Shown one piece after another: positions 4,131-64,000 of a DNA stretch of 64,000 bases. Location of the stretch: the NCBI GenBank assembly GCA_019059635.1, contig JAGVRJ010000011.1, positions 124,001-188,000 of the forward strand, written 5' to 3'. Made by a program: the position numbers and the translations under genes. A model generated the notes under the pieces. It was given only the letters and a program-made list of their open reading frames with translations, was not told where the DNA came from and did no database searches. This DNA is from Proales similis. Lineage: Eukaryota; Rotifera; Eurotatoria; Ploima; Proalidae. Position 1 is the first letter of the stretch. Each line of letters opens with the position of its first letter.

Positions 4131-4488
4131 TATTGCATAAGAACTAAACAAGCACGTATTCTCTCTGTGTTTTTCTCTTTTATTCGTTGCCCAAATTTTC
4201 TTAATCAAACCTCATTCAAAGATAATTTCGTCATCTCAGTCTCATAAATTGCTCAAGTTGACTCGATTATCTAAGCCCTTGATAAGCGCCCGCGTTTTAT
4301 TTTCGCAATTAGTCGAGTCAGGTTCTCGCCTCGGAGTTCGCTCCTCTCAATTTTATCAAGCTGCCACCGAAAGAAGTGACCACCAGTGCGAAAGATTTGC
4401 GTTCAGATCCAACTTGCTAGCTGGGTTTAAAAGTCAATTTATTCTAAAAGCTTTCAATTTACAATCGGATGAGTGACTATCAATGGGA

Positions 4489-6915: not shown

Positions 6916-8389
6916 ATGAGCAACGCTCTGATTGGCTTCCTTAAAACCCTTCTTCCACTTCAGCTTATGCTGTTTTACACGTTTGTCACCAGTGGCCTCA
7001 TCGTCAATTTCCTGCAGCTACTCACGCTCCCGATCTGGCCGTTTAGCAAGAAGCTCTACAGAAGAGTAAACTGTGGCCTTGCCTACCTGCTCTGGTCGGG
7101 TAAGCCTGTCTTGGTTGGTCGTGAGACTTTCAGTTGTATTTCATCTCATTAAACGCGAGCCAGAGTTCACGTTCCTCGCACAAGAATGGTCCGGCAGCGA
7201 TGTGGTCATTTACATGAACGAAAAGGACTTTGCCAAGGTGAACAAAGAGCACACAATCGTGATAATGAACCACAAATACGACGTCGACTGGCTCATGGGC
7301 TGGATAGTCTGCCAGAGGACTGGCCTCTTGCCCGGTTCTAAGATTGTGGGCAAATCGTCGCTCAAATTGGTGCCACTGATCGGCTGGTGCTGGCTATTTA
7401 CCGAAAGTGTCTTTATCAAACGCAAATGGGAAGTGGACAAGACCAAGCTGATCGAAGGATTCGACAAGATTCTCACCGACTATCCGGACGATCAGTTTTT
7501 CAATGTAAGCTTCCCACCCGTTCACTCAAAGCGAGAGCGTTCATTTACGTTCAAATTGGCAGATATTGATGTTTTGTGAAGGAACTCGCTTCACAGAGAA
7601 AAAGCACGAGGCGAGCATGAAGATTGCGAAAGAAAAAGGCCTTCCACAGCTAAAGCATCATCTCTTGCCGCGTTCCAAAGGCTTCTCGCTGCTCGTCAAA
7701 GGCACAGCGGGTCGAAGTAAGCAGCCGGTCGACTAATAGACTAGATCAAGACTTCAAATTAACCTGAGCATGAAACAAAGTCGAATCTATTCTCGATTTA
7801 ACCATTGGAATCAAATCGGCTGACGGCGGCAAGCCGAGCTTGAACGCTATTCGCAACGGCAAGCCTGTTCAAAGCGAGATATTTGTTAGACGCATTCCAA
7901 TGAGCCAAGTGCCTCAAGACGACGAGGGATCGGCCAAGTTCCTCTTCAACATGTACAAAGAGAAGGTGAGAGCTCGTCCTGTCGACTCGGCTTGGTTCAA
8001 CTTCAATGCTGGCTTTGCCTTTTGAACAGGACGAAATATTCGACGTATACGCTAGAACGGGCAGCTTTGAGTCGCTGGGCGAGACCAAGATCAAATTGAA
8101 GAAAAACTATTTCGATCTCTTTATCTGCATCGTCTGGCTGACGGTTCTTTGCTTGCCAATGACCTACTGGCTGCTTACGTTTCTGGCAAGTGCAAGTCTC
8201 TACAGCAAACTGATTGTGCTCGGCCTCTTCTTTTCAAGTAAACGCTCATTCGCCGTTGGCTGCATCTCTTGTTTGCTCTAATGGCGATTCGTTTAAGCAA
8301 ACATCCTCGTCAATTTGTTCGTTCGAGTGACAGAAACAGACGCCGGCTCTGAATATGGGCTCAATTCAAAAGTAAAAAAAGCCGACTAA
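6916..8389 (+). CDS. 1-acyl-sn-glycerol-3-phosphate acyltransferase (AGPAT3/4 type), copy 1
   Basis: Transfers an acyl chain to lysophosphatidic acid to make phosphatidic acid at the ER membrane. Six exons close in phase: 6916-7099, 7164-7504, 7563-7716, 7781-7965, 8030-8237 and 8298-8389, giving 387 residues (human AGPAT3 is 376). An N-terminal hydrophobic helix precedes acyltransferase motif I, NHKYDVDW (NHx4D catalytic pair). Motif II (SVFIKRKWEVDK) follows, then EGTR within FCEGTRFTEKKH for glycerolipid binding, and KGLPQLKHHLLPRSKG. Two C-terminal hydrophobic segments end the protein. The start at 6916 gives the family-typical MSNALIGFLKTLLP. A related gene follows 538 bp downstream on the same strand. 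Whether it is AGPAT3 or AGPAT4 is not resolved. Confidence 0.94.
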
Positions 8390-8927
8390 TGAACGCCGGC
8401 CGCTCTGGCTGCGGCTTTTTCCTCTTTTTGAATTCCTACAGTTTCTTTGTTCGTTCGATTTGTCCTCCAGACATCGATGCAATCATGGAATAAATTAAGA
8501 AAATTGGAAATCAATTCTAGCGGAAATTGGATTTAAGAACGATCGGGAATCGAAGATTAATCAGCAGGGGGACGGCCGCCGGGCTGGTCAAACAAAAAGG
8601 ACGCAAACGAGGTGAGAGGGATCGTAAGGGTGTTGCAAACTAGCTCACATCTGATGACTTGAATCGAATTATTCGCTCGTTAATTTAACGTCGGCGGCGA
8701 CTGCGAGCCGAGAATAAATAATTTTTCCAAGTCACCTGAAAACGACAAGTGTGTTCGATAAGAGAGAGCGAGAGAGAGAGCTCGTTCTCGTCTTAATTAT
8801 TTGAAACGACTCGGAGCGAGCTAAAAAACGCGAGAAGGGAGTAGAGCGCGCACGAGCTTTTTCGCCAACGCCAAGAGGCAGTCACAAGTCTTGAGTGTAG
8901 GAATAACAATAATAATTTTTATTAATA
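8390..8927. other. Intergenic region between the two acyltransferase genes
   Basis: 538 bp with no gene seen. It contains a purine-rich GA tract at about 8761-8780 and presumably the 3' UTR of copy 1 and the promoter of copy 2. Confidence 0.5.
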
Positions 8928-10720
8928 ATGTGGTGGCGCGAGTTTAAGAAGCAGTTGCTGCCTCAACTGCTCATATCTTACACATTTGTTGTATGCGGAA
9001 TATTGGTAAACATCGCGCAGACCATCACCTGGCTGTTTGTGCGTCCGTTCGATCGCTACTTGTTCAAGAGACTAAACTACTACTTGGCGATTGCGTTCTG
9101 GTCGAGTAAGTAGACTTTGCCGTTTTTGTTCTTTGGTTTCGTTCTAGCTAAATACGCTCGGAATTGCCAGATTTGACCGCACTGGCTCAATGGTGGGCTG
9201 GCGTGGACATGGAGTTCTACATGAACACTGAGGATTTCAAAATGATCAACCAAGAGAACATGGTCTGCGTGCTCAACCACAAGTACGATCTTGACTGGAT
9301 TGTCGGCTGGGTCATTTGCCAGCGAGCCAACATACTTGGGGTTGATGAGCAAGAATACCTCCTCTCGTCTCCTGCTAACTCTTCAATTAACAAAGGGCTG
9401 CAAAGTAGTGCTCAAGGAGAGCCTCAAGTACGTGCCCTTTTTGGGCTGGTCGTGGGTCTGCAGCGAGTACATATTTCTGAAACGAGTCTGGGACAAAGAC
9501 AAAAAGGTTCTAGAGCGTGACTTGCGTCAGGTATTCGACTACCCGAGTGACCTTCATTTTAACGTAAGAGCACAGAACATGCTGTAAGTATATGGACGTA
9601 TGGTCAGTTTTATTGCTCAAGGTCACCATATTCTGCGAGGGCACCCGCTTCACCCAAGAGAAGCACCAAGTGAGCATGCAAGTCGCGCGTCAAAAGGGTC
9701 TTCCAGTTCTCAAGCATCATTTGTTGCCACGCAGCAAAGGCTTTTGTTTGCTCATGAGCCAAGTGGGTGACAACGGTGAGTACAATAGTACGCCTCTTCA
9801 TAGTCAGTCAGCGACATTTCAGCTCGTTCTAGTCAAGTTTCTGTACGATTTGACCATGTACATGGAAAATGTGAACGGCCAGGAGGTGAACTTGAGCCAC
9901 ATACGAAACGGAGTTCCGTTAAAGTGCAGAGCAATGATGCGTCGAATACCGATCTCGGACATTCCGATTCACGATGCGGAACAGTGCGCCCAATATGTTC
10001 ACAAGCTCTATCGCGAGAAGGTTCGTTCCAACTTTTCAATTATTTCGCTTGCTCGGGCACAGCTCAGGCCGAAAGATTACATCTGAGCGGATGTGATGTA
10101 TGAGGCATGGTCAATCTGACGATCCTGTGCGAAAAGAATTCGATCTAGCCAATTAGAAACAGGAGACGAAGAGTTAGAAGTTGAGAGCTACAGACAGAGA
10201 ACGAGAGAGAGAGAGAGGGGGGAAGGGAGGAGGCTAGAACTCAGCCTGATAGAACAAGAGCCTATTTTAACGCTCGATTGACCTTCGCTCGATCGAATCG
10301 ATGATGGAGCCAAAGGCCGATCGGCCGATTAATTGGACGGATGAATTAATTTGCTTAATTTTGTGTGATGTTTCTAAAAGGACGAGATATTCGACAGGCT
10401 GAAGAGCGGAGGCGATCTGAGTGCGCTCGGGGCGAGCAAATGTGATCTAAAAAGGAACAAGATTGATTTGGTCATCTCGCTCGCATGGATGATTGTCATA
10501 CTTGTACCGTCCGGCATCTACTTCTATTCTCTGCTTGTGTGGGCCTCTTGGGGCCTCAGGCTGAGTTTGCTGCTTGTTCCGGCCTTGAGTAAGTGGCGCC
10601 ACTCGAGACAATCAGCATGGCTCATCATTAATCGTTTCTCTCGTTTCAGTCATGGGCCTCATTAATTTCATGATCGCCCGCGCGGACAACAAGTCGGAAT
10701 TCGGACTCAAACGCGAATGA
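8928..10720 (+). CDS. 1-acyl-sn-glycerol-3-phosphate acyltransferase (AGPAT3/4 type), copy 2
   Basis: Second acyltransferase of the tandem pair, with the same predicted reaction. Seven exons close in phase: 8928-9105, 9171-9340, 9396-9563, 9622-9775, 9833-10020, 10381-10588 and 10650-10720, giving 378 residues. NHKYDLDW supplies the NHx4D catalytic pair and FCEGTRFTQEKH the EGTR motif; RRIPISDIP matches RRIPMSQVP in copy 1. The exons carrying EGTR (154 nt) and the C-terminal membrane region (208 nt) have the same lengths as in copy 1. The single 341-nt exon of copy 1 is split here into 170+168 nt, so one intron was gained or lost after duplication. The 360-bp intron 10021-10380 is long for this locus. 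The copies are clearly diverged and likely both functional. Confidence 0.93.
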
Positions 10721-27648: not shown

Positions 27649-27720
27649 TTCCCACACCGGGAATCGAACCCGGGCCTTCTGCGTGAAAGGCAGAAATCCT
27701 AACCACTAGACCATATGGGA
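27649..27720 (-). tRNA. tRNA-Glu (anticodon UUC), copy 1
   Basis: A 72-nt cloverleaf read on the minus strand. The acceptor stem TCCCATA pairs with TGTGGGA (one G-U pair), followed by discriminator A. The anticodon loop CTTTCAC gives UUC (reads GAA/GAG). The T arm carries GGTTCGATTCC. No intron. A T6 run (27642-27647 on the plus strand as A6) directly downstream is a Pol III terminator. It is identical over its full length to the plus-strand copy 268 bp away. Confidence 0.97.
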
Positions 27721-27988: not shown

Positions 27989-28060
27989 TCCCATATGGTC
28001 TAGTGGTTAGGATTTCTGCCTTTCACGCAGAAGGCCCGGGTTCGATTCCCGGTGTGGGAA
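27989..28060 (+). tRNA. tRNA-Glu (anticodon UUC), copy 2
   Basis: 72 nt, same sequence as the minus-strand copy at 27649-27720. Internal promoter boxes A (TGGTCTAGTGG) and B (GGTTCGATTCC) are both intact. It starts with TCCCATA and ends TGTGGGA plus discriminator A, followed by GTTTTTTG. Short identical flanks (GTAG before, GTTTTTTG after) show that the duplicated unit is slightly longer than the tRNA itself. Confidence 0.97.
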
Positions 28061-28061
28061 G

Positions 28062-28067
28062 TTTTTT
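28062..28067 (+). terminator. Pol III oligo-T terminator of tRNA-Glu copy 2
   Basis: T6 run one base after the tRNA 3' end. Confidence 0.85.
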
Positions 28068-28348
28068 GTCTGCCCAAGACTCGCGTCAATTTAATGCCAA
28101 ATGTGAATTCAATTAAAACCAAAATTTACCCCCTAAACCTAAAAAGTACAGAGAACGCAGAATTATTTCTAATTATTTCTAATGCTATTTTAAATTCAGA
28201 ATCGACAGAGGGTCAAACTGAAACAAAACTATTCTGCGTAAAAGTGAAGACTTGTTCTGTTGACGTACTCATCTCCGGGAGACACGATTGTGTTAGGGAA
28301 GGACTCCTTAAGTTGAGTCTTAAAGTCTGTGAGTGACCCCCAAGAAGA

Positions 28349-29500
28349 TTAAGCAATTACGTGATTGACTGCATCCGGGTAGTTGTGGCATTCAATGCAA
28401 AAGCCCCCGTGAAGGTCATATACTGTGCCGTTCGTTTTTGTCGAACAGAGGAAGTTACTTGTGTAGAATTGAAAGCCCTTCTGATTTGTGCGCACATCCA
28501 TTCTCAAGCCATTTTGAGCATTTCTCACGCTATGCGTTGAATTTCAATTCAGAATTCAAGCATCTATTCAAAGACAGCAATAAATACCTGGCCACAACAT
28601 CGTCGCCGGCTTTAGCGGAAATCACAAAAAAGTTGTCGAAGCCCTCATCTGGCCATTTGCCGCCCTCTTTCATTCTATCGCCGAGACGAGTAAACTGAGC
28701 AAAGTCGTACTTGGTGTTGGCAACCGGCATCAGGCTGCCAGTAGGAATAGAATCTGAGTCCGTTTGCAGAATGTGCGATGCGTCGAATTTAAATTCATGT
28801 CCGTAGACCGCTTGTGCAGACTCGTTTCCACTCAGGTTGAAGTAGCCATGATTGGTCAAGTTGATCGGCGTTGGTTCGCTTGTCACTGCTCTGTATTCAA
28901 TATTCAGCACATTTTGATCCGATTCCAGAGTGTAGACTGCCTCTACAGCCACATCGCCTGGAAAGCCGCACTCATTGCTCGGACTAAAGTAAGTGAACTT
29001 CACCCCGTTCGACTCTATAGCACTTAGCCAGTTCATCTATGAACAGGTGTTGAATAGCAGACTTGAGTTTTGCGAGATCGACTGCTACCTTGGCCATTGC
29101 TTTGAATCCACCGTGCAGACAGTGAGAGCCGTGATTGGCATCAACATTGTAGACCCGCGAGCCGATCTGGAACTTGGCGTTGCCGATGCGGTTCGTCACT
29201 CGGCCGACGCTACAGCCAAGGTGGGCGTTTATTTTCGGATTGGTGTATTCTAGACCAAATTCAGTTTGAGTAGCGTTCAAGTGAGCCAAAGAAAAACTGC
29301 CCACCTTCAAGTGTGTCCAGTCCAAGGTGAACAGATACAGGGCGGCCGTCTCTATCATTGACAACAATCGACTGAATTGAGGCGCCGTAGGAGACGAGTG
29401 AGACAGTGAAATTATTCCGATTCTTAAGTGTGAACTTTTTCACTGCTTGGCCATCTTCGAGAGTGCCAAACACGCTTTCCTCAATTTCTATCTGCTTCAT
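28349..29500 (-). CDS. GALM: Galactose mutarotase (aldose 1-epimerase)
   Basis: Interconverts alpha and beta anomers of galactose and glucose at the entry of the Leloir pathway; cytosolic. Four exons close in phase: 29305-29500, 29089-29249, 28588-29036 and 28349-28529, giving 328 residues (human 342). Family blocks in order: SLVSYGASIQSIVVNDRDGR, GCSVGRVTNRIGNAKF, CLHGGF, catalytic-His block NLTNHGYFNLSG, GFDNFF, FQFYTSNFL and the catalytic-Glu block GFCIECHNYPDAVNH. The introns are 52-58 bp. The first ATG at 29500 matches the family start. It is divergent from the first carotenoid oxygenase, with 472 bp between. Confidence 0.95.
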
Positions 29501-29972
29501 GCTGCTCTACGAACAAAGAATAGACTAATGACGCTCTAGACTCTTTCTAATCGATTTGCATTCGTGTAAAGCGAATTCATTTTTGAAAGATGATCAGAAC
29601 AGACATAATTCAAACTGCGCGATACATGAACCGTTCAAATCTGTTCGAATTTTTCATTCATTCTCTATTTGCTCGTCAAATCTTTTCGTTTTGGTAGTCG
29701 CACGTCGTTGTCTCTTCTCTATCCCTCCCTGTCCCAATATCCAAGAGAGAGAGAGAGAGATAAAGAGAGAATCCTGTCGGCGCTGAAAAGGATCAATATA
29801 TTCGCAGTGAAATGCATTAATCATTTGTGATAATGGATAAGCACCGAGCGCCTCTATCCGACAGTTTTCCTCTTCCGGGCGGTGACATTTTTGCCCGCAG
29901 TAGTCGTTGCCGCTGCTGCTGCTTCTTCATTTCAAGCGCTAGAACGTCTCAATCGATTTCATCTTATCCACG
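29501..29972. other. Divergent promoter region between GALM and carotenoid oxygenase 1
   Basis: 472 bp between two divergent start codons. A GA dinucleotide tract lies at about 29744-29762. No coding exon seen. Confidence 0.5.
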
Positions 29973-31499
29973 ATGAACAAAAGACTGCCACGCTCTCTTG
30001 AAAAGAGCATTAAAGCACCAGTCGAAGCTGAAGTCGAGGGCACACTACCTGAATGGCTGAACGGCACGCTCTATCGAAATGGACCGGGCCGATTTGAGTT
30101 CAACGGACGCCGCTACGAGCATCTATTTGACGGTCAGGCTTGTGTTCATAGATTCCTTTTTGAACGAGGACGAGTGTTCTACTCGAACAGAATCTTGGAG
30201 ACGAATTCGATCAAAGAGACCTTGAGAACAAATCGTCTCTATCCGAACTTTGGTCTTCCTGACCCGAGCATAAAAGGCTTGAGGAGACTGGCGCGTTTCA
30301 TTTGCCAGCCGAACACAAATGACAACGTCAACATAAACGTGAGCGCACTAGGTGACGAGCTCTACGCCTTGACTGAGACAAACCTCTTTTGCCAACTTGA
30401 TCCGGTCGATTTAGGGATTGTCAACACGATCGACGTGAGAAAGCACGTGTGGCGAATCAAGACCTCAATGGCGCACCCACACGTGGATCACGATGGCAGC
30501 TGGCTGGCGGTCGGCATGAATCCGCTCGGCATTAGGCCTCGCTATGAAATATTTCGCTTCAGAGGAACTGGCAGGCCTTCGGCGAAGGGATGCCGCGTCG
30601 AGCCGATTGTGAGTGTGCGCTCAGCTCATCGATTCGCGCTCTCTTATTATCACAGCTTTGGCCTCACTCAGAACTACATTGTGTTCTTGGAGCAGTCGCT
30701 GATTCTCAGCTTTTGGGAGCTTTTTCTGGCTCTGGTCAGAAACAGGCCGCTGAGCAATGCGTTCAAGGCAAATGAGAAATTCAAAACCCGAATTCATCTA
30801 ATCGAAAGGTCGAGCGGCAAACTCGTCTCCACCCGCTACACATCTCGAGCTCAATTCACATTTCACGTAATTAACTCGTTCGAGCAGCTCAACCAAGATG
30901 GCAGCTCTGAAATATTGGTCGACTTGTGCTCGTACGACATGCGCAATTTCGATCTGGAGATATTCACTCGAGCAGATTTGTACAAACTGGAAGGAGCCCA
31001 GCTCGACTCGATTCGGTCCACTCTTCGCCGCCTGAGAATCCCTCTGGTGAAAGCAGTTGAAAATAATCGGCCCACTCAGATCGAATGCGAAATGAATGAC
31101 ATTCAAATGGGTGTCGCAGTCGAGCTGCCAGCAATAAACCCAAACTACACCAGCTCTGCCTACCGCTACTTGTACGCAGTCAACTACCTCAAGGCGCCAT
31201 TTTCGATCCTGAAAATTGACATCCAATGCGGCATAACGGTGGCCGAGAAGCGTTTTGAGTCACAGGGCCTTGAACAGCCAATACCCAGCGAGCCAGTGTT
31301 CGTACCGCGACCTAACGGACTGAGCGAAGACGACGGCGTCTTGCTTGTGATGATCTTGAGCGAGAGCGTCGACTTTGTGGACGTGATAGACGCCGCCAAC
31401 GAGCTCAATTTACTCGCCCGAGTGAAACTACCTAACGGGGTCAAGAGCGCATTCACCTTTCATGGCTTTTTCTTGCCTCGCAAGGAGCACCTTGAGTGA
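29973..31499 (+). CDS. Carotenoid cleavage oxygenase (BCO/RPE65 family), copy 1
   Basis: Non-heme iron oxygenase that cleaves carotenoids or related apocarotenoids. Single uninterrupted frame of 508 residues, the usual family length. The four iron-ligand histidine blocks are present: AHPH (residues 168-170), YYHSFG (His227), FTFHVINSFE (His298) and FTFHGFF (His497). The N-terminal family signature YRNGPGRFEF and HLFDGQA are clear. LPDPSIK sits at the place of the metazoan PDPCK motif, with Ser for Cys. The closest feel is BCO2-like (9',10'-cleaving), but substrate and cleavage site cannot be assigned. It has no introns although its neighbours do. An AATAAA signal follows at about 31557. Confidence 0.93.
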   Translation: MNKRLPRSLEKSIKAPVEAEVEGTLPEWLNGTLYRNGPGRFEFNGRRYEHLFDGQACVHRFLFERGRVFYSNRILETNSIKETLRTNRLYPNFGLPDPSIKGLRRLARFICQPNTNDNVNINVSALGDELYALTETNLFCQLDPVDLGIVNTIDVRKHVWRIKTSMAHPHVDHDGSWLAVGMNPLGIRPRYEIFRFRGTGRPSAKGCRVEPIVSVRSAHRFALSYYHSFGLTQNYIVFLEQSLILSFWELFLALVRNRPLSNAFKANEKFKTRIHLIERSSGKLVSTRYTSRAQFTFHVINSFEQLNQDGSSEILVDLCSYDMRNFDLEIFTRADLYKLEGAQLDSIRSTLRRLRIPLVKAVENNRPTQIECEMNDIQMGVAVELPAINPNYTSSAYRYLYAVNYLKAPFSILKIDIQCGITVAEKRFESQGLEQPIPSEPVFVPRPNGLSEDDGVLLVMILSESVDFVDVIDAANELNLLARVKLPNGVKSAFTFHGFFLPRKEHLE

Positions 31500-31735
31500 C
31501 CTGGTCCAAATCGTTGAGCTCACATTTTTGTGCGGCTCTTGAACAAACTAATCTAAAAATAAAATATCTAATCACAGTTGCTGTTTAAACTCGAGTTACT
31601 TTCGATCGTCTGATTATTATGCAAACGATTGGTGAGCACAGACACGAGACTCGGAGCATAATCTGGCCCTCAAGTGAGCTTGGGTAACAAGACAATCGAG
31701 CGGCCAAGAGCAGGCACATTGACTAGCAGCAAGAA

Positions 31736-33253
31736 ATGACTGGTTTTAACAAGCTATTGCGATCTCTAAAGCAGAGCACAGACAAGCCCGTCAGGGCGGC
31801 TGTGAGCGGAAAGCTGCCCGACTGGTTGAGCGGAACTCTCTACCGGAACGGACCGGGTCGATATGAGTTTAGCGGCAAGACCTATCACCATTTGTTCGAC
31901 GGACAGGCGTGTGTGCACAAGTTTCGCATCGACCAGGGCCAAGTGTTTTACTCCAATCGCTTGCTGGAGACAAAGTCGTACACCAACACGGTGGCACAAG
32001 ACCGCCTGTTCCCCAACTTTGGCAGCACTGACGTCAAATCGAATGTAATCGAGCGCTTCAGGTCGGCCGTCAATCCGCCCGAGACCAACGACAACGTCAA
32101 CGTCAATGTGGTTCCGTACGCAAACGAGCAGCTCTACGCCCTTACCGAGACAAATCGCATTTGCCGCCTTGATCCGGCCAATCTGGACATAATCAGCACG
32201 ACCAACATACAAGACTACCTGAAGCAGTTGAGCTCAACGATCGCTCATCCGCACGTGGAAACTGACGGCAGCTGGATAACGATGGGCATCAGCGGTAAGG
32301 GCAAAGTGCCACAATACCAGTTCGTTCGCATGAAGGGCAGCCAAGCGGCGTCGAATGCGTGCGAGCAAGCACAGCTGATCGCCAGCATTCCGTCTAGTCA
32401 CAAGAACGGCTTCAGCTACTTTCACAGTTTTGGCCTCACGCAGAACTACATTGTGTTCCTGGAGCAGACGCTCAAAATCGACTTTAAGACTCTGTTCAAA
32501 TCGCTGCTGTTCAATCGGGCCCGCTCCGAGGCGCTTGTTATGGACCGTGAGTTTCGCACCCGCGTGCATGTCATCAACAAGCACACCGGCCAAGTGATCG
32601 ATCGTTCGTTTAGCGCCGAGCCTCAATTCACTTTTCACTACATAAACTCGTTCGAGACCGAGTCGGGCCAGATTTGCGTCGACCTGTGCTCGTACGATCC
32701 AAAATACTTTGACATAAACAGTTTCACCTACGACAAGATGTACGAGGGCGAGCTGCAGAATTCGGCAATGATGAGAGCCACGGCCAAAAGATTGATTGTG
32801 CCGCTCAAATCCGACCAGAGGCACGTCGACTGCGAGCTGGTCGACTTGAACCCCAACGAGCCCTTTGAGCTGCCGGTCATCAATTACTGGCGATTCAACG
32901 GCCGACCCTACAAATATGTGTACGGCACCTCGCACTATCAGGCGCCGTTCAGTGTGGTCAAGATGAACGTTCAGAGGCCAAGCGAATTCGTCAAAGTTCA
33001 TTACGACCACCTACACAAAGGCCATTACCTTCCCAGCGAGCCGGTGTTCGTCGAACGGCCCGGTGCCACCACCGAGGACGACGGCGTTCTTCTGGTGATG
33101 GTCTTGGCCGAGAACGGCGACTTCCTGTCCGTGCTGGACGCTCAAAGCATGAAGGAGATTGCCCGGGCCGAACTGCCTGACGAAGTCAAAGGCGCTTTCA
33201 CTTTCCACGGCTTTTTCGCCGACTCGTTTCAATTCGAAAAACTGCATGTCTGA
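31736..33253 (+). CDS. Carotenoid cleavage oxygenase (BCO/RPE65 family), copy 2
   Basis: Second intronless family member, 505 residues, starting 236 bp after copy 1. All four histidine blocks are intact: AHPHVETDG, YFHSFGLTQN, FTFHYINSFE and FTFHGFFA. YRNGPGRYEFSG and HLFDGQACVHKF mark the N-terminal blade. The PDPCK-like motif is lost (GSTDVKSN occupies this place). The C-terminal block PSEPVFVERPGATTEDDGVL is typical for the family. AATAAA at about 33314 probably serves as polyadenylation signal. Predicted cytosolic enzyme; its substrate is unknown. Confidence 0.93.
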   Translation: MTGFNKLLRSLKQSTDKPVRAAVSGKLPDWLSGTLYRNGPGRYEFSGKTYHHLFDGQACVHKFRIDQGQVFYSNRLLETKSYTNTVAQDRLFPNFGSTDVKSNVIERFRSAVNPPETNDNVNVNVVPYANEQLYALTETNRICRLDPANLDIISTTNIQDYLKQLSSTIAHPHVETDGSWITMGISGKGKVPQYQFVRMKGSQAASNACEQAQLIASIPSSHKNGFSYFHSFGLTQNYIVFLEQTLKIDFKTLFKSLLFNRARSEALVMDREFRTRVHVINKHTGQVIDRSFSAEPQFTFHYINSFETESGQICVDLCSYDPKYFDINSFTYDKMYEGELQNSAMMRATAKRLIVPLKSDQRHVDCELVDLNPNEPFELPVINYWRFNGRPYKYVYGTSHYQAPFSVVKMNVQRPSEFVKVHYDHLHKGHYLPSEPVFVERPGATTEDDGVLLVMVLAENGDFLSVLDAQSMKEIARAELPDEVKGAFTFHGFFADSFQFEKLHV

Positions 33254-33544
33254 TCCCGGTGTTGCCCATTAGGAGAAAATTAGGAGAAAATTGAATAGAC
33301 CTTGAGCCGAACCAATAAATTAACTGCAACTTTTCTCTTTTTGTTACGCTTCGATCGACTGCGACGAGCTGATCCAATTTGGACAAATTTGCCGCTTTGT
33401 GGCCGCTTGCAAGCGTTTGAAGCGAATACGCGCCTCAGACCTCGAATTATAATAAATTAGGTAATAGAGACAGCAACGCGCTGTGCTCATCTGCGCGCAA
33501 GCGATTGCGTCCGCACATATTACATAAACGACGAAGAGAAGCGA

Positions 33545-35083
33545 ATGTCGAACAAATCGGGCTTGCTGCGTTCATTGAGCAAGAGCTCCCAAGGTCCAGT
33601 CGAGGCCGTAGTTCGTGCGGGCCAAGTGCCGGCATGGCTGAGAGGAACATTGTTTCGTAACGGCGCCGGCCGGTTCGAGTACGGCAAGCTGAAGATGAAG
33701 CATTTGTTCGACGGCAGCGCTTGTGTTCACAAGTTTAAGATCGACAACGGCCGAGTGTTTTACTCGAATCGCTTCCTGGAGACAAGCAACTACACAAAAG
33801 CGCTCAACGAGAATCACATCTCGGCCAACTTTGGCACCGGCGATTTGTGCGAGAGCGTATTCGGCCGAGTGAAGACCATGTTCAAGGTGCCCGATTCGTC
33901 CGACAACGTGAACGTGAACATCGTTCCGTTTGGCAATAAGCAGCTCTACGCGCTCACCGAGTCGAACAGAATCTGCCAAGTAGAGCCGACAACGCTGGAC
34001 GTGCTGCGAACAATCAAGGCAGAGAAATTCGTTCCCAGCATGAGCTCAAACATTGCGCATCCTCATTTCGATCAGCAAGGCAACTGGATCAACGTGGGCA
34101 TGAGCTTGGCCGAGAAAAAGGCCGCCTACGTTTTTGTAAAGTACTCGTCGGACGGAGCGGCTCATTTGTGCGACAAATCTCAAGTTTTGGCCACTTTGCC
34201 GTCGAGCTACGATGCCGATCTCTGCTACTTTCACAGCTTCGCTCTCACCGACAATTACATTGTCTTCTTGGAGCAGCCGCTGGTGATCGACGTCGGCAAG
34301 CTAAAGCGCTTGTTCTTGATGCGCAAGGCGCCAGTCGAGGCGTTCAAAATGAAGCCACGCGTTCGCACTCGTGTTCATGTGATCAACCGCCACACCGGTC
34401 AGATTCACAACCAGCGCTTCCTCACCGACCCTCTCTTCACCTTTCATCACATAAACGCGTTCGAGTCGTTCAACTCGGACAGACAGCGACAAGAGATTCA
34501 AGTTGACGTGTGCGCCTATGACCCGCTTTACTTTGACATAGGCCAGTTCACTTACGAGAACTTTTTCGGCGATCAGCTCGAAGCGGCGGCGTCCACGAGA
34601 TCGCTCGCCAAGCGAATCACAATCCCGCTCGAGAAGAGCTCCAGCTCATTGATCGAAGTTCAATGTCCCATCAAAGACCTCAATTCAAAGCTCTCACTCG
34701 AACTGCCCGTCATCAACTACGGCAAGTTCAACACCAAGCCGTACAAGTTCGCCTACGGCGTCAATTACCACAAGAAGCCCTATTCGATTGTTAAAGTGAA
34801 TGTGACCGACAGCGGCGACTTCCTCGAGAAGACCTACACAGATGAGAGCGGAAAGACTCTGGTGCCCAGTGAGCCGGTGTTTGTTGAAGCACCCGACGCC
34901 CAGAGTGAAGACGACGGCGTGCTCTTGGTCATGGTCTTGGCCGACCAGAACGATTACCTGTCGATATTGGACGCCAAGAGCTTCGCCGAAATTGCACGTG
35001 CCGAGGTGCCGGCAGACGTGCGGGGCGCCATGACTTTTCACGGTTTCTTCGCCGACCAGACACAGTTCGCCGAGCTCAACTAG
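33545..35083 (+). CDS. Carotenoid cleavage oxygenase (BCO/RPE65 family), copy 3
   Basis: Third tandem member, 512 residues in one exon, 291 bp after copy 2. Histidine blocks are AHPHFDQQGNW, YFHSFALTDN, FTFHHINAFE and MTFHGFFA, so iron binding should be preserved. Two normally conserved spots differ: DG after the first block is QG, and RNGAGRFEYG replaces RNGPGRFEF. It ends 450 bp from the convergent NME8 gene. Sequence divergence between the three copies is substantial, so they are not recent duplicates and may have separate substrates (inference). Confidence 0.93.
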   Translation: MSNKSGLLRSLSKSSQGPVEAVVRAGQVPAWLRGTLFRNGAGRFEYGKLKMKHLFDGSACVHKFKIDNGRVFYSNRFLETSNYTKALNENHISANFGTGDLCESVFGRVKTMFKVPDSSDNVNVNIVPFGNKQLYALTESNRICQVEPTTLDVLRTIKAEKFVPSMSSNIAHPHFDQQGNWINVGMSLAEKKAAYVFVKYSSDGAAHLCDKSQVLATLPSSYDADLCYFHSFALTDNYIVFLEQPLVIDVGKLKRLFLMRKAPVEAFKMKPRVRTRVHVINRHTGQIHNQRFLTDPLFTFHHINAFESFNSDRQRQEIQVDVCAYDPLYFDIGQFTYENFFGDQLEAAASTRSLAKRITIPLEKSSSSLIEVQCPIKDLNSKLSLELPVINYGKFNTKPYKFAYGVNYHKKPYSIVKVNVTDSGDFLEKTYTDESGKTLVPSEPVFVEAPDAQSEDDGVLLVMVLADQNDYLSILDAKSFAEIARAEVPADVRGAMTFHGFFADQTQFAELN

Positions 35084-35532
35084 TCCAATCCAGAGCGTTC
35101 AACGTTCACTTTTTTTTTATCATTTATTGAATATGTTTGAACCAAAGCCAAATAGAGAGGGAGACAGAGATGAGAAGCATTCGGTATTGGTCGTCTCCTC
35201 GAGTTCATTCTTTAGTTTGAATCATGTGACCTGTTTACAAACGCAGTTTTTAGTTTCGGCAGCATTTCAGAATTTTCAAAAGAATAGAAAACAAAAAGAA
35301 AATAAAAACGCAAATAGTTTGTCTAAAGCAGTGGTCTAAATTAGCAATAGCGGCGACAGTACTGGCAGCAGCGCTAGACAGATTCATGTCTGGCGATAAA
35401 GCGCAAATTAGATAGACCAAACAAACAAAATAGAGAATTCAACCAAACATTCACACACAGGTGGCGAATATTCGGTTAGCGCGCTTTTTTCGCTTTAGAG
35501 GTTAGAGAACTAGGCTACTTGATAACAGCGAG
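35084..35532. other. Convergent intergenic region
   Basis: 449 bp between carotenoid oxygenase 3 and the NME8 stop. It is A-rich near 35290-35310 and has no gene. Probably two 3' UTRs. Confidence 0.5.
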
Positions 35533-38500
35533 CTATTGATTACCTATGGCATTGAGACGAGAATAAAGAGCAAAAAGAAGAAGAAGAAGGAAGAGGAGAA
35601 GGAGAATATAGAAATGAGTCTCTCATTTATCTTTTTGGTTAGAGCCGGTTATTTAGAAACGCAAACTCGTCTGAGTTTTAATTTAAAAAGTTTGCACTTA
35701 CCAGTCTCGTCGAATTGAACATTGCCGAAGAAGAGCTTTATTTCGTGCTCAGCTTGAGATTGGTCAGACGGGCCGTGGACTGCGTTTCGAAGAGTGTCCA
35801 CACCGTAGATTGCTCTGAGTCTGAAATGCTGTGAGGAAAAGGCACATGGCGCAATTTTTAAAATCGCTTGCTTACGAGTCCGGATTATCTCTCTTGGCCG
35901 CCTCCGGGTCTACCGGTCCAATCGTGGCGCGCCATCGCTCAATCGCATTCTCTTGCGATAGGACGTAGATGGTCGTCTCGCCGCTTGTGTCAGCCAGTTT
36001 TAGAATCAGAACGGACAAACTGATCTCAGACTCAGCTTTACCTGGTCATCAGCTCGATCAGGTCGTTGAAGTGAGGCGAGCCTTCCTGTTGCTTGTAAAT
36101 ATCGCGCGCGATCTCCTCGGACAGCTTGGTCGACTTTTTGGAAGCGATCACGAATCCAGAGCTCTTGATCCTCTCCTCAATCTCAGCTGGCCACGAGAGT
36201 AGACTGTTGCTCAATGAGGAGAGACAGCAAGTCTAACTACCTTGCTTCTCTGCTGGCAGTCCTGGCTTAATCAGGCCGACCGTCTGCTCCATCGGAAAGA
36301 ACTTCTTCAACTCCTTGATGGCTTCGTCTCGACTTGACGGTCCGTGAAGTGCATTCACACGCGAGTCTTCCACATCGAACTCGTTTCGCAGTCTACAAGC
36401 AAATCCCGATGCTCAACGAATTGGTTTAGAATGAAGGCCATTGATGGATGAGCTTACGTGCCGACGGCTTCCTTGATCTCGCCCTTTTCCTTGGGTCCGA
36501 GCTGCTTGCGCCATGCGGCCACCGCATTTTCGCCGGCCAAGCAAAGCACAAGAAGTGGCCCACTTGAATCAAAGACAAACAAATGAAATCAAAAGGTCAA
36601 AGTCGACAGTGACCAACCAACCTGCTCATTTCGGTGACCAGGTCGTCGAAAAACGGCTTTCCTTGGTGCTCGGCGTAGAAATCTTCGGCTTGTTGGCGTG
36701 TCAACTGCACCTGTTTGGCCAAGGCAATCTCAAAGCCGCTCTCCCTAATCCTCTCGATTATCTTGTCCTTGTGCTTGGCGAACGCCGACGGCCGAATAAG
36801 AGCCAGAGTCTTTTCAACTTTCACATCATCCGGCTGGTTGGACTGCTTGGCCGAAGGAGGCCGACTCGGCACGTCCTTGTTCGGAAAGAAGAACGCCAGC
36901 TCTCTGGACGCAGACTCAGTACTATCACTGCCATGCACGGCGTTCATCAGCTGATTGGTCGCGTACTGAGCTCTGAACGATTCGCTTGCTTCACCAGCGT
37001 CCTGTTCGTCGACAATGCCCACGTCTTGTCTCCATGCGTTCACCACGTCCTCATTGTTTCCAGGCTTACTGAGGGCGAGCACGCAGGACACATCGCTGGT
37101 CATAAACGCGACCAGCTCTTCAAAGTCAGCCTTTGCAATATGCCATTTTAAGAGCGAATCGAGCCGCTGCCGAGACAAGGGAACGTACCGACTCGGCGCG
37201 ATGCTGGTAAAAGTTTCGCGCCATCTCGTCCGTGAATTTCACTTCTTTTTGCTCTACAATCTCGTAGCCGCGCTGCTTTATCTTGTCGATGATCTCGTCC
37301 TTTTTGCCCTGCGCCATCATGTCCGGCTTTATGATGCAGATGGTTATCGGCTTTTGCGTTTTGACTGCGAAACACACACGATCAGGTTAAATTGGACTGG
37401 TGGCGACGGTCGCTCTGCTTACCGAGCTTCTTCACTTTGCTCTCCGCCTCTTCTTTGGCCTTTTCTTTGCGAATTTTCTCAATCAACGGATCACTGATCT
37501 AAATCAAAGCGGAGTGAGCCGATTCAATCTGCTTGACACTCTGCTTGAGAGCGTGGTCGAGTTAACTGACCACTTTTCGCTGGGACTGGCCACTTTGCAC
37601 AGCCTTTTCCGCCTCGATCTGCTCTTGAATGGTTCGAATGATGAGCGGGGCGTTGGCACCGCGAACCACTGCCACCAGTTGTCCGCCCTAGGAGCCAAGT
37701 CAAGTAGAATAGTCAAGTACGCGGCTGAGATCAGCCTACCCCGAAAAAGAGATAACAGGGCTCGCATCGATCCTTGTAGTCGGCCAATGTGCTGATGTTC
37801 TCCGCTTTTGCCTTTTAAATTGTCCGGTTAGTCCGGTCTTGACTAATGCAGTCGACTCATGCAATAAACTGGAAACTAGTCTACAAGCTAAGCAACTGAA
37901 AGCACCAACAGCAACAACAATGACAGCAGAGCGTGTTAAAACGAAAAGCAGCTGGTCACTTTAAGTGAAGAATTCAAAGGCTCGATTAGTTTGTCTATGC
38001 AAATCAGAAAACCGAAAGAGGCAGAGAGGAAAACTAAGAGTAGCTTGTGTTTGTAATAGACGATTAGTGAGCTTAGAAGAGCAATCGAGAGAGACTCGTG
38101 TATTGATCATTGAAGGCGCGAGTGCGAGGCAAACTCACAGTGGCAAAGTGCAGACGAGCCGAGTCGCCAATTTGATTTGAGAGTGCGCGAAGCCTGGGCT
38201 CCATGGCCTTCAAGGGTCCGCCGTACGACTGGTACACATCGACCACTAAAACGAATTGCGATGAGTGCGCCGCGAGCAAACTCGTTCAGTCAGTGAGTGA
38301 GTGAGATCGGTCAGATCGGTGTGTTGTTGTGTCGATCGCGCGTGTTGGCAGTGAATTCAATTGGACGAGTTTGCTCAATGTGATACACACAACAAGGTGA
38401 GGGCAGGGAACACAATGTACTCTTCTTTCAGCTGTGCGCAAGGTAAACTCGAAATTACGTTGGCAAACTGAACAAATTCGGAGCTCTGTTCCATCTTCAC

Positions 38501-39015
38501 TTTTCTCAGCGTGTTCTCCATCGCCTTGCACGAGCCGGCCCATTCTTGATAGACCTCGACAACTAGGAGAGAAGCGTTTGATAACAAATATTGCATGCAG
38601 CAGCCAGAAAGCGGCGGCAAACAAACGGCAAGCGGCGAATGCCAGTCGTTGGGACAGAGATACAGCGCGTACAGTGAAATATGAGAATCGACTGAACAGC
38701 TGCTGATGAATGGCCTCGAGCAGCTTGTAGGCCGTGTTGGAGTTGCACGCCCATCCCTGGTAGACGTCGACCACTTTAAAATGGCGATCGGTGTTCAAAT
38801 TTCACAACGCACAGTTTCGATCGTCGTCGGGCGCATGATGATGAACAAATGAAACGCAACTTACCGATCAGGCCTTCTCTCTTGAGCATCTCGGCCCATT
38901 GCTCGTCGTTCTCAATCTCTTGCTTTAAGCCAAACGGCAATTGATTTCAATTAAACTAAAGCCTCTGACACGAGTCGGTTACTTGCAGAGCGAGTTCAGC
39001 CTTTCGCCGAGCCAT
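35533..39015 (-). CDS. NME8: NME8 / thioredoxin domain-containing 3, axonemal dynein-associated protein
   Basis: Thioredoxin-NDK-NDK-NDK protein, equivalent to sea urchin outer-arm dynein intermediate chain 1. Exons close in phase: 38983-39015, 38865-38922, ONE of 38673-38773 / 38459-38562 / 38139-38245, then 37740-37811, 37571-37687, 37423-37498, 37189-37364, 36622-37130, 36458-36562, 36392-36241, 36042-36186, 35876-36019, 35702-35820 and 35533-35543. Product length is 605, 606 or 607 residues depending on the variant (human 588). The N-terminus MARRKAELALQ and GGQLVAVVRGANAPL are family-typical. Each NDK domain keeps its NxxHG block (NAVHGSDS, NALHGPSS, NAVHGPSD). The final 11-nt exon (GNQ-stop) is the least certain part. 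The three variant exons are listed separately. Confidence 0.93.
38139..38245 (-). other. NME8: NME8 alternative thioredoxin exon, variant C (107 nt)
   Basis: 3' splice site TTCGTTTTAG and donor GTGAGT; phase 1 in, phase 0 out. It encodes VDVYQSYGGPLKAMEPRL and ends RLHFAT. The active-site place reads GGPL: no cysteine. This variant has the best overall splice signals. Confidence 0.87.
38274..38376. repeat. Perfect 12-bp inverted repeat in the intron between variants B and C
   Basis: Arms at 38274-38285 and 38365-38376 are exact reverse complements (GAGCAAACTCGT / ACGAGTTTGCTC), separated by 79 bases and lying wholly inside the intron. In the transcript they could form a 12-bp stem. Seen directly; its role is inference. 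Confidence 0.85.
38459..38562 (-). other. NME8: NME8 alternative thioredoxin exon, variant B (104 nt)
   Basis: Strong 3' splice site (CTTCTCTCCTAG) and a GTAATT donor; phase 1 in, phase 0 out. It encodes VEVYQEWAGSCKAMENTL and ends EFVQFAN. The active-site place reads AGSC: only the second cysteine remains. Confidence 0.85.
38673..38773 (-). other. NME8: NME8 alternative thioredoxin exon, variant A (101 nt)
   Basis: Bounded by a TTTTAAAG 3' splice site and a GTACGC donor; enters in phase 1 and leaves in phase 0. It encodes VDVYQGWACNSNTAYKLL and following helix sequence ending FSYFT. Aligned to the family pattern WCGPC it reads WACNS, so both active-site cysteines are replaced and a cysteine sits one position later. 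Its donor is the weakest of the three. Confidence 0.8.
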
Positions 39016-39439: not shown

Positions 39440-41948
39440 TCAAATGTAAACCTTCTGCTGATAGAGGCCGGTCGAGGAGTCGATGAGTCGGTTGTCGCGC
39501 TGTTCGACAAGAAACCGTTCATTCGAAGGTTGAACCAGCGAGAACGAATGGGGCGACGGAGCGTCCGAGATGAACGTGGACGAAGTCGACTCGGTCGACG
39601 AATAGGTCGCGTTTGATGTGCGGTGCTCGCCACCACACCAAGTCGGACGTGCGGACGTGCGTTTAATCGAAAAGTATTCGGTCGAGTCGTAGTCCATGAA
39701 TCGAGACGGGCGTTCAGTGGGAGTCACTTGAACATATCGAATAGGGTCGCTTTCAACAGCGGTCGCCGCTTTCGGCCTGTCGTTCGACGACTGAGCACTG
39801 CACTCGGACGACGAGGAGTTGAAGTAATTTAGGATTGACTTTTTGCCGACAGCAAAGCCCAAGATGCCAACTGACAAGGCAACAGTGAGAAGAACGATCA
39901 TAACCAAGAGAGGCACGGGCAGCTTGAGAACAAGCTGAGAGCGCCCGGTCGCCTCGGTCATGTCCGCCTGCTTCTCTTGTCGCCGGTGCTGAGTAGAAAA
40001 CATCTGTGCTACGGGCGTAGAGCGAAACCGGGAGCAGTTTAGGTTTTGATTGTCCAAACAAGAGGAAGGCGGCAGCGGCCAAACAAGCAGCTGATCCTTG
40101 CTCAGCAGCAATGCGTGCTCCTGCTCATCGGCTGAGCTGATCACTTTCAGCGCTCTGATGTTGGAGCTGAATGCAGACGAGAACAACTCGTTCGGCAATG
40201 AATAAAGCTCTGTTCGGTTCAGCAGGCGCCCTGTCTTGGGCTCAATAAAGACTCGAATCAAGTTGCCGCTGTCTAAATTCGAACGAACGAAAAGATTGAA
40301 GACACAACTCGTTAAAATTGATTGAATAGAAGACTGACCAGTGCCGATCAAGAGGCGATCTTGATCACTTTGGTAGTGGGCGTCGAGTGAGACAAATCGC
40401 TCCGAGCGGCCGGTCTCAACCAGCAACGCCTCCGATCGAATCTCGTCTCGCATCTTGACATGGCGTCGTGTAAACACCAAATGCGAATAGGTCAAGTTTG
40501 TGGGGCATTCGCTCGGACGCGGCTTGGGCACTTGATGGGCGCCGGCCGACTTGTATTCGCCGTCAAACGAAGCCATTAATTGTTTGAGCGTGAACTTGCA
40601 GACCGCCGAAGCGGTCACCTGTTGCTTGGAGGTTGTGAACAGTGCATAGAAATAGGCGTCGTTTTGGTTATCGGCAGCCTTCAGCTCGCCGACTGAGTCT
40701 GTGTTCGAATGAAGCAGATGAAGGCTATTAGTGCAAACAGTTCAAATTCTCGCATTCTTACTCAGCTCGTTGAAGTAGAACGCTTTCGATGGGTCGCCGT
40801 TTGTCTCAGGCGAGCTGAGACGGTCTGTTCGAACGCAGGCCAAGTCTGCTTTCAGAAAAGTGGTCCAAACGTTGTGCAACGAGTTGAGAGGCGCGCCGTT
40901 GTCATTTCGGCACACGTGAGCCACTCGAGTGACGGCCTAGAAGAGCGCAACTGTGTAATATGGCGACGATGGTTGAATTGGACAAGTGGCTACCATCGAA
41001 TTGGAGTCCAGCTCCTGAAAGAAGAAGAACATGCGCTGTTTGGTAGAGATTGAGCCGACGAACTTGGAGCCTGTGCAAGCCATTTGAGAAAGAGAGATGA
41101 GAGAAGCGACCGAGGGCAGATAGCGAGCGAGCGGATTACGTGTGAGCCAGGCGTCGTCATTCATTCGGCTGTTGATGCTGTTCGATTGACTCAGTTTACT
41201 TAGGCTGGTAAAGAAGCCGCTTGGATCGAGCGCATTGCCCGTGTAGAACGATTTCGACTCGTTCATGTATTCACTGATGAAATGAACTTGACTGCCTCTG
41301 AAGGGCACGAAGCCGATGCCGCTCTCTTCGTTCACAAGTCTCTGTCGAGATGAGTCCACCTGTTCGAATCGATTATTTGGACCGGCCAAGCAGATTAGAA
41401 GCTGTTCAAACCTCTGCGCCGGCGTACAATCGGCATTTGGGCCGCAGTGAATTGGTGCCACAGACGAACCAGTTTGTTTGGTTTATCCACACAAAAAGAC
41501 GAATAAAGTTGGAGCAGTCGGCCGGCGGCTGATTGACCACTGGCCTTTGCTGGCATGCGATAACTTCCTCTCTCGAGCTTGGCCAATCGATTTGCTATTT
41601 ACGGAATTTTGAAAAGTTTGCTCGCCATCGAAGAGAATCGCATCCTACTTGCTGAATGTCAAGTCGAGACTTGGATAGCGAGTAGAGGCTGTTGCGGCCG
41701 CCTATCGAAACTGTGTCCGGACGATCATTTGTCAAAAAAGCCAATTCCTCGTCGGTGCCGTACTGAGTCCGGAACACTTTGAACTCATCTGGAGCCGGAA
41801 GTTGACATTGAACGATTGTGGCAGTATTCAAAAGGCGACGTTTACCTGTTCGTGGACTGTGCTTTTGCTTGAATTGAATCGATTCGTGCCAGGCCAGAAC
41901 ACAACTGCTCGCTGTCAAGAAGAGCACAAGCGAGCAAAGTGGCCGCAT
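39440..41948 (-). CDS. Transmembrane semaphorin with a Sema domain only
   Basis: Six exons close in phase: 41649-41948, 41412-41594, 40994-41359, 40762-40936, 40339-40698 and 39440-40272, giving 738 residues. The signal peptide is MRPLCSLVLFLTASSCVLA. The Sema beta-propeller carries typical blocks: IDWPSSREEVIACQQR, NFIRLF, CGTNSLRPKCRLYAG, EESGIGFVPF, MFFFFQELDSNS, RVAHVCRNDNGAPL and WTTFLKADLACV. After the propeller only a short SSCLDNQNLNCSRF segment remains where a PSI domain is expected, and there is no Ig or thrombospondin module. A TM helix (PVPLLVMIVLLTVALSVGIL, about residues 580-605) and a Ser/Thr-rich tail of about 130 residues follow. Likely a membrane-bound guidance or contact signal via plexin (family knowledge). 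Most like invertebrate Sema-1 in topology. Confidence 0.88.
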
Positions 41949-62468: not shown

Positions 62469-63300
62469 ATGGCAAAGGTAAATAAATAAAACGCCAAATA
62501 GTTCGACCGGCAGCAGCCTAATTTTTGCTTTGCCAAGTCAAAAGTGAGCCGAGAAGACGACGAAAAGTAACTCTATTCGAATAGCCTAGTGGGTCGCAAT
62601 TTCAAAATGTAAAAAGGCCCAAAGAGCTGAGCGCCAAAAAGCCGGTCAAAACCTTCCGCAACATATTCAAGGTGCCGAAAAGGGAGACGATTGATCCTCG
62701 ATTCAGCGCTGCGTTCGGCGACTACAGGCCAGAAGTATTTAGAAAGCAGTACGGTTTCCTAAACGACATGCGCAAGCAAGAGAAAGAGGTAGGTGCGACT
62801 GAGCAAGCGCTTGAACAGTCAGAAGCTTCACGTTTCAAAGATGCTGACCGAAGAGCTGAAAAAGACGAACGCAGAAGAGGTGGAGAAGAAGGCCAAAATG
62901 AAAGCAGCTCTAACACGAATAGTAAATTAGACGTGAATACCACCGACCTGAGCAAGACTGAGCCACTTTATCTGGTTGCAGAAGCAGCAGATAAAATCGT
63001 TCGAAGAAAACGAAAAGAAGGAAGAGAGCAAGCAAGCGCTCAAAAAACAGACAAATGAAGAGGCCAAACAAGGCCAGCGTCCTTACTTTCTGACCAAATG
63101 TAAGCAAGTCTGTCTCGCTAACTCATTTGCTCGTGTCATTAAATAAACTGAAATTAGCGGACCAGAAAATGCTGCAGCTGGCCGAGAAGTACAAAGAGCT
63201 GAAAAAGAGCGGCAAAACGGAAAAGTATTTGGCCAAGCTGCGCAAGAAGCAGTTGAGCCGAGACAGAAAAAAAATCGACTTTTTGAATAAAAAAGATTAA
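62469..63300 (+). CDS. RRP36: Ribosomal RNA processing protein 36 homolog
   Basis: Component of the early 90S pre-ribosome required for 18S rRNA processing; nucleolar. Five exons close in phase: 62469-62477, 62585-62788, 62823-62921, 62982-63099 and 63158-63300, giving 190 residues. Family blocks: RPKELSAKKPVK, DPRFSAAFGDYRPEVFRKQY, GFLNDMRKQEKE, GQRPYFLTKSDQKMLQLAEK, YKELKKSGKTEKYL and the basic C-terminus. The first coding exon is only nine bases (MAK) and is inferred from a clean AAG/GTAAAT donor and the frame requirement. Intron 62789-62822 (34 bp) is unusually short, so the exon 2/3 junction is less sure. The charged middle (EEVEKKAKMK, EENEKKEESK) is coiled-coil-like. Confidence 0.9.
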
Positions 63301-63889: not shown

Positions 63890-64000
63890 GGACTCAAAGT
63901 GGCCTTACTTTCTTACCAAATCTAAGCAAGTCTGTCTCGCTTGGTCATGTGCTTATTTTATTGAATCATCTGAAGTTTAAGGATCAGAAAATCCTTATCT
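63890..64000 (+). pseudogene. Degenerate copy of the RRP36 exon 4-intron-exon 5 region, cut by window end
   Basis: The sequence from about 63903 follows RRP36 63081-63170 closely: CCTTACTTTC, ACCAAAT, TAAGCAAGTCTGTCTCGCT, then GGATCAGAAAATCCT against CGGACCAGAAAATGCT. The copy includes the intron, so it arose by DNA duplication, not by retroposition. The 5' splice site GT has become CT, and the frame runs into a stop inside the former intron. Similarity fades upstream of about 63890. More of the copy may lie beyond the window. Confidence 0.75.

Follow-up and report, generated by a model that had tools for sequence, protein, structure and literature searches.

The window analysed here, a 64,000-nucleotide (nt) stretch of contig JAGVRJ010000011.1 of the rotifer Proales similis, carries on its minus strand an intact gene of the NME8/TXNDC3 type in which three tandem exons, termed A, B and C, encode the same part of the thioredoxin domain. 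Only messages with a single one of these exons keep an open reading frame, and A, B and C are very probably functional mutually exclusive exons giving three NME8 isoforms. The gene runs from ATG 39015 to a predicted TGA at 35625-35623 and encodes one thioredoxin and three NDK domains. In the spliced model each isoform is open from ATG 39015 through the exon at 35820-35702, and a short last exon from 35630, ending at the TGA, is predicted. The features of the gene, with the evidence for each, are as follows.

35623..39015 (-): NME8/TXNDC3-type gene; spliced model open in three isoforms, last exon predicted
38983..39015 (-): exon 1 with the start codon, 33 nt; spliced model, N-terminus aligning with TXNDC6 from residue 1
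38865..38922 (-): exon 2, 58 nt, ending in phase 1, the upstream partner common to A, B and C; spliced model
38673..38773 (-): alternative exon A, 101 nt, VVDVYQGWACNSNTAYKLLEAIHQQLFSRFSYFT, ACNS at the motif position; spliced model, homology, codon bias
38459..38562 (-): alternative exon B, 104 nt, VVEVYQEWAGSCKAMENTLRKVKMEQSSEFVQFAN, motif AGSC; spliced model, homology, codon bias, outside profile
38139..38245 (-): alternative exon C, 107 nt, VVDVYQSYGGPLKAMEPRLRALSNQIGDSARLHFAT, motif GGPL; spliced model, homology, outside profile
37740..37811 (-): downstream exon common to A, B and C, 72 nt, phase 0; spliced model
37571..37687 (-): 117-nt exon, phase 0 to 0; spliced model
37423..37498 (-): exon holding the stop reached when all three exons are skipped; spliced model

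Reading frame and gene identity

Exons A, B and C are located between exon 2 (end at 38865) and the common exon at 37811-37740. Each is preceded by AG and followed by GT, is entered in phase 1 and left in phase 0, and lacks an in-frame stop, with encoded lengths of 34, 35 and 36 amino acids, respectively. All exon combinations in genomic order (8/8) were checked for an open frame. The frame was open only with A alone, B alone or C alone, while AB, AC, BC, ABC and the message with none of them led to an early stop. The stop was located at 38508-38506, inside B, for A+B and A+B+C; at 38212-38210, inside C, for A+C and B+C; and at 37493-37491, in the exon at 37498-37423, for the message skipping all three. 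With the predicted last junction counted, 11 exon junctions are found 3' of the early stop in each of AB, AC and BC, 12 in ABC and eight in the skipped message. This indicates one exon per working message, because the other combinations stop early. An earlier note on this DNA had claimed that exactly one of the three exons fits a productive message, and this was borne out by the eight combinations; the coordinates, lengths and phases that it gave for A, B, C and the common exon were all reproduced in the spliced model, and the stops of the doubles and of the skipped message were located where it had placed them.

Published criteria for mutually exclusive exons are a length within 20 amino acids, compatible splice sites with the same reading frame, and homology (PMC3228551). 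Exons A, B and C agree with these sequence criteria in length, in splice sites and frame, and in homology, which for A is weak past the first residues. A further feature of such clusters is that each mature transcript carries one exon and no more, and single use is all that the reading frame permits here. Among Drosophila X genes, neighbouring exons of this kind that are not exclusive were reported in only 6 of 1705 (PMC3228551).

The assignment to NME8 was based on domain content and homology. Pfam detected thioredoxin (E 9e-8) and NDK in three stretches (E 3.1e-109) in isoform B, and with isoform C as query the top PDB match was TXNDC6 (E 9e-70) of entry 8j07, a human respiratory doublet; no NME8 chain was found among the PDB matches listed. 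The thioredoxin part of the protein aligns with TXNDC6 from the first residue. All three NDK domains (36947-36882, 36358-36293 and 35816-35721, minus strand) retain the motif N-A-[VL]-H-G, whose histidine is the catalytic residue of active kinases. In NME8, a thioredoxin domain at the N-terminus precedes three NDK domains (PMC2777172). An assignment to NME8 over NME9 is favoured, because the gene encodes three NDK domains and NME9 has a single one (PMC13256974), and the NME8-type identity given in the earlier note thus holds, by the Pfam domains and the TXNDC6 match. Membership of the product in the outer dynein arm, and in cilia, is suggested by homology only.

Homology, coding signal and the active-site face

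The three exons are homologous, as had been claimed. Protein identities were 11/34 for A-B, 11/34 for A-C and 15/35 for B-C, with alignment z-scores of 6.8, 7.3 and 10.9 against 500 shuffles each, and A was the most diverged of the three copies. Divergence at silent sites (dS) was near saturation, with values of 1.9 (A-B), 2.3 (A-C) and 1.9 (B-C), while divergence at replacement sites (dN) was 0.76, 0.82 and 0.55. Neutral decay was simulated by mutating one copy of each pair without selection to the observed nucleotide identity (4000 runs per pair). The observed protein identity was reached in 1.6 %, 0.2 % and 0.1 % of runs, and the frame was still open in about 20 %. This indicates that the copies are old and have been retained as coding sequence, since dS is near saturation, dN is lower and neutral runs seldom match the observed identity.

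Codon usage was scored with two models. With a model trained partly on the NME8 gene, the coding frame scored highest and the other two forward frames were negative in 3/3 exons. Two antisense frames also scored above zero, at 5.9 in B and 1.9 in C, compared with 16.0 and 7.5 in the coding frame. The second model, for which the training set was limited to seven other long frames in the window, gave a bias per codon of 0.40 for A, 0.43 for B and 0.23 for C versus 0.36 for constitutive exons. The expected-frame score was attained by 0 (A), 0 (B) and 5 (C) of 3000 stop-free base shuffles, and with the first nine codons removed A and B were still above 3000/3000 shuffles. The top score in the expected frame, together with dN below dS, agrees with the earlier proposal that each exon is coding. 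Chance similarity or intronic junk was ruled out by the codon bias, homology and selection tests. A profile that includes A, B and C recovered exactly three copies in the window and nothing else of note, a circular result in that the profile contains the three; a hidden fourth copy was sought in the window with this profile and none was detected.

Likeness to thioredoxins differed between the exons. A profile of outside proteins, consisting of TXNDC6 and two Chlamydomonas light chains, matched B at E 1.2e-8 and C at E 4.8e-5, and B was the best of the three matches to outside thioredoxins. For Pfam thioredoxin, the values were 6.5e-9 with isoform B and 1.6e-6 with isoform C. The match to TXNDC6 scored 78 bits without the cassette, and adding A, B or C raised the score to 106, 123 or 115 bits, respectively. 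Without the cassette the N-terminal flank was not aligned to TXNDC6 and the best stretch was 30-93, so the gain with A is weak support, as much of it may come from this flank, which does not align unless the gap is closed by a cassette.

When aligned to TXNDC6 and the light chains, the cassette takes in the strand VV[DE]VYQ, the loop of the active site, helix α2 and the start of the following strand, elements named after the thioredoxin fold. The CGPC motif of TXNDC6 and both light chains reads ACNS in A, AGSC in B and GGPL in C, and no CxxC pair is present in the cassette of any isoform. Thioredoxin activity was not detectable for human NME8 and NME9 (PMC13256974, PMC2777172). A binding role is the simplest reading of the domain, because CxxC is absent from every isoform and the human proteins have no detectable thioredoxin activity, and the sequence suggests that the domain is probably a binding module rather than a redox enzyme. 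A 2026 review describes the significance of the thioredoxin domain in NME8 and NME9 as unresolved (PMC13256974). If the three isoforms are made, a natural three-way swap of the active-site face, with the cysteine pair gone throughout, would favour binding over redox chemistry, and A, B and C would form a ready-made set of variants for testing the role of this domain.

Exon choice and alternative explanations

The cassette introns, of 110 nt (A-B), 213 nt and 327 nt, are the three longest counted. The nine counted introns after the cassette are 52-72 nt long, and the two before it are 60 nt and, leading into A, 91 nt. This is as expected if control elements reside in the cassette introns, and the gene would offer a clean three-exon case for studying exon choice among other introns of mostly about 60 nt. 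Exclusion mechanisms surveyed for human genes are U2/U12 incompatibility, steric block, frameshift with decay, and RNA pairing (PMC5740500). Steric block by too short an intron was rejected, as the A-B intron of 110 nt exceeds the constitutive introns of 52-72 nt used in the model. U2/U12 incompatibility was likewise rejected, as none of the donors (GTACGC, GTAATT and GTGAGT) was U12-like by comparison with the U12 donor consensus. Frameshift with decay is compatible with every one of the combinations, and exclusion probably rests on frameshift and nonsense-mediated decay (NMD) plus splicing factors.

In Dscam-type control, one docking site is complementary to several intronic selectors (PMC6071210). 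That competing RNA pairings of this sort pick the exon in NME8 is quite improbable. In six docking tests, 32, 49, 31, 51, 3 and 52 of 60 shuffles equalled or exceeded the observed pairing, uncorrected for the number of tests, so that one was marginal, for a site near 38286 in the B-C intron against the two upstream introns, and the other five were ordinary. Six intron-intron duplex tests were also ordinary, with 16 to 99 of 100 shuffles as good, and the fold energies of introns and region had z-scores of -0.1 to -0.8. The marginal docking site coincides with one arm of a perfect inverted repeat:

38274..38376 (-): possible hairpin within the intron between B and C, formed by a perfect 12-nt inverted repeat with arms 38376-38365 and 38285-38274; shuffles

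A 12-nt inverted repeat was attained in 1/500 shuffles of the B-C intron, but in 17/300 of the whole 1183-nt region. With regard to a possible repeat family, the 12-mer with at most one mismatch occurs four times in the window, both arms counted, versus 0.56 expected. In the genome, one of the arms with its flank had one mismatch-free match, the NME8 locus itself, and 269 matches with up to three mismatches, versus 167 for a reversed control pattern. The docking site and the inverted repeat are regarded as a lead only. The likeness to Dscam-type cassettes put forward in the earlier note therefore stands for the one-of-several logic, in a cluster of three exons, and not for docking and selector pairing, which did not exceed shuffles except in the one marginal test of six.

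Two other explanations concern the use of the exons. It is unlikely that only one or two are spliced into working messages, with A, as the most diverged, a relic or rarely used. This is favoured by A itself, of which the outside profile matched just the first 8 residues (E 0.23) and for which no Pfam thioredoxin match was found in isoform A at E up to 1. However, A still has an open frame, splice sites at either end and undiminished coding bias, which extends to its diverged part (0/3000 shuffles), and its helix segment is amphipathic, with a moment attained by 2.6 % of 2000 shuffles (11 % for B and 22 % for C). Control by poison exons, in which messages with two exons or none would themselves be the point, as a means of silencing NME8 through NMD, and the isoforms would be of minor importance, is very improbable. 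It would be consistent with the early stop of every non-single combination, which has 8-12 exon junctions 3' of it, and with the other introns being 52-91 nt long, so that inclusion of all three exons might be the default. A poison exon, however, need not remain homologous, in frame and codon-biased as a replacement within the fold, and A, B and C all do.

Several results weigh against three functional isoforms. Besides the poor thioredoxin matches of A, the frame logic by itself does not establish that all three exons are used, and the codon signal of C past codon 9 is weak, being attained by 197/3000 shuffles. No mechanism of exon choice was found by the docking, duplex and fold-energy tests of the cassette introns. 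In favour of the three isoforms, no second NME8-like thioredoxin was found in the genome (32.7 Mb, 15 contigs), and no NME9-like thioredoxin-NDK gene was detected, by an exon-by-exon search of limited sensitivity in an assembly that may be incomplete. The search with the thioredoxin region returned the NME8 gene and two others, a weak match of 27 % identity (E 1.3e-4) and one with E 0.32. The other NDK places, which are on C2, C11 and C12, had none of the at least 38 scored thioredoxin matches less than 150 kb away. The same protein search of the genome disclosed neither a further copy of the gene nor an allelic contig.

Functional mutually exclusive exons remain the preferred explanation. In the mechanism proposed, A, B and C arose by tandem duplication of one ancestral NME8 exon, and each would supply the same strand, active-site loop and helix α2. 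By the reading frame, a working NME8 message must carry exactly one of them; mixed or skipped messages would be removed by NMD, and which exon is chosen may depend on splicing regulators that act from the long introns surrounding the three exons. The products would be three NME8 isoforms differing on the active-site face of a thioredoxin domain without a CxxC pair, with a likely effect on a binding surface on the outer dynein arm and not on redox activity. Use by tissue or cilium type would be likely: mammals possess two genes of this kind, NME8 and NME9, and here none resembling NME9 was detected. A further and rather doubtful step is that one NME8 gene yields three cilium-type-specific subunits of the outer dynein arm by mutually exclusive splicing of a redox-dead thioredoxin module, with splicing serving a purpose for which mammals may use the NME8/NME9 gene pair. 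If so, cilia within one animal could be diversified by splicing of a motor subunit.

Genome context and known systems

To place the cassette among other loci, tandem exons were scanned for in the window and in 200 kb from 15 other places (20 stretches, 264 kb in total) and judged by eye. No other internal tandem exon pair was recognized in the 264 kb, with two tiles left out: L026, a tandem-repeat locus with 194 fits, and window positions 28001-38000, with 18 fits mainly from an RPE65 gene triplet. The scan detects B-C but misses A, and so undercounts diverged cassettes. The rows that remained were accounted for by tandem genes, by the repeated NDK domains of NME8, and by two pairs, a short one in L021 and another close to the end of the window; neighbouring similar segments in L014 and L019 had 0 fits for a matching splice frame among the output listed. 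In L026 (G000:C7:300001-310000), units of about 123 nt, or 41 codons, are repeated in tandem at about 2780-7490, and a large duplication (77.6 % over 460 amino acids) is present besides. The genome also has matches to Wnt (seven at exon level, in three places), innexin (43) and homeodomain (106), which mark it as that of an animal.

Elsewhere in the window, the RPE65 triplet at 29943-35083 (+) comprises three tandem long open frames (518, 508 and 540 amino acids between stops), each of which matches almost all of the RPE65/carotenoid-oxygenase profile and is apparently intronless. A tandem pair of sequences in several exon-like pieces, up to 67 % identical, is located at 6937-10572 (+) and resembles acylglycerolphosphate acyltransferases by its motifs. 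Two divergent tRNA genes are found at 27649-27720 (-) and 27989-28060 (+), each with an Rfam score of 66.6 bits. Upstream of NME8 and on the same strand, a gene at 39443-40741 (-) encodes a Sema-domain protein that has, as judged by eye, a hydrophobic stretch resembling a transmembrane segment; the end of this gene is about 425 nt from the NME8 start. The repeat near the window end, at 63081-63174 and 63903-63996 (+), is a short frame with 71 % identity over 21 amino acids, or 67 % over 27 in another frame, and is perhaps a duplication of a gene or an element.

Mutually exclusive exons are a known arrangement. Dscam, the myosin heavy chain, unc-32 and the human set of PMC5740500 likewise have tandem homologous exons of similar length and phase inside one folded domain, and combined use shifts the frame in such exons (as in PMC5740500) as it does with A, B and C. 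Unlike those genes, the one described here encodes a putative axonemal dynein component and has three exons only, with no docking and selector signal beyond the one marginal test. Searches for mutually exclusive or duplicated exons in NME8, TXNDC3, thioredoxin domains or dyneins found no such cassette in the open-access literature, among the matches listed, and the earlier statement that none has been described in NME8/TXNDC3 holds as far as these searches go. Neither NME8 nor TXNDC is mentioned in the main text of PMC5740500 or PMC9741552. If confirmed, the cassette would be the first in an axonemal dynein component within the literature so covered.

In the human transcript TXNDC3d7, exon 7 of NME8 is skipped. 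The human gene has two transcripts, the full-length one and TXNDC3d7, whose ratio matters in primary ciliary dyskinesia (PMC13256974, PMC11457495). Human exon 7 should begin at c.271, because the variant c.271-27C>T sits in intron 6 (PMC11457495), and the 117-nt exon at 37687-37571 begins at c.271 in isoform C, c.265 in A and c.268 in B. The human event thus most likely concerns the counterpart of this exon and not the cassette. Human NME8 is a gene of the same type that is also alternatively spliced, but by skipping or keeping exon 7, two exons past the cassette position. For the choanoflagellates and metazoans that were compared, the thioredoxin region has been reported to have a well-conserved exon structure (PMC2978717).

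The best sequence matches to the NME8 gene described here are NME9/TXNDC6 and the Chlamydomonas outer-arm light chains LC3 and LC5, which are thioredoxin-fold subunits of the outer dynein arm. LC3, LC5 and TXNDC6 retain the CxxC motif (PMC10886578), unlike A, B and C. Their variety comes from separate genes, whereas in the window it would come from a cassette within one gene.

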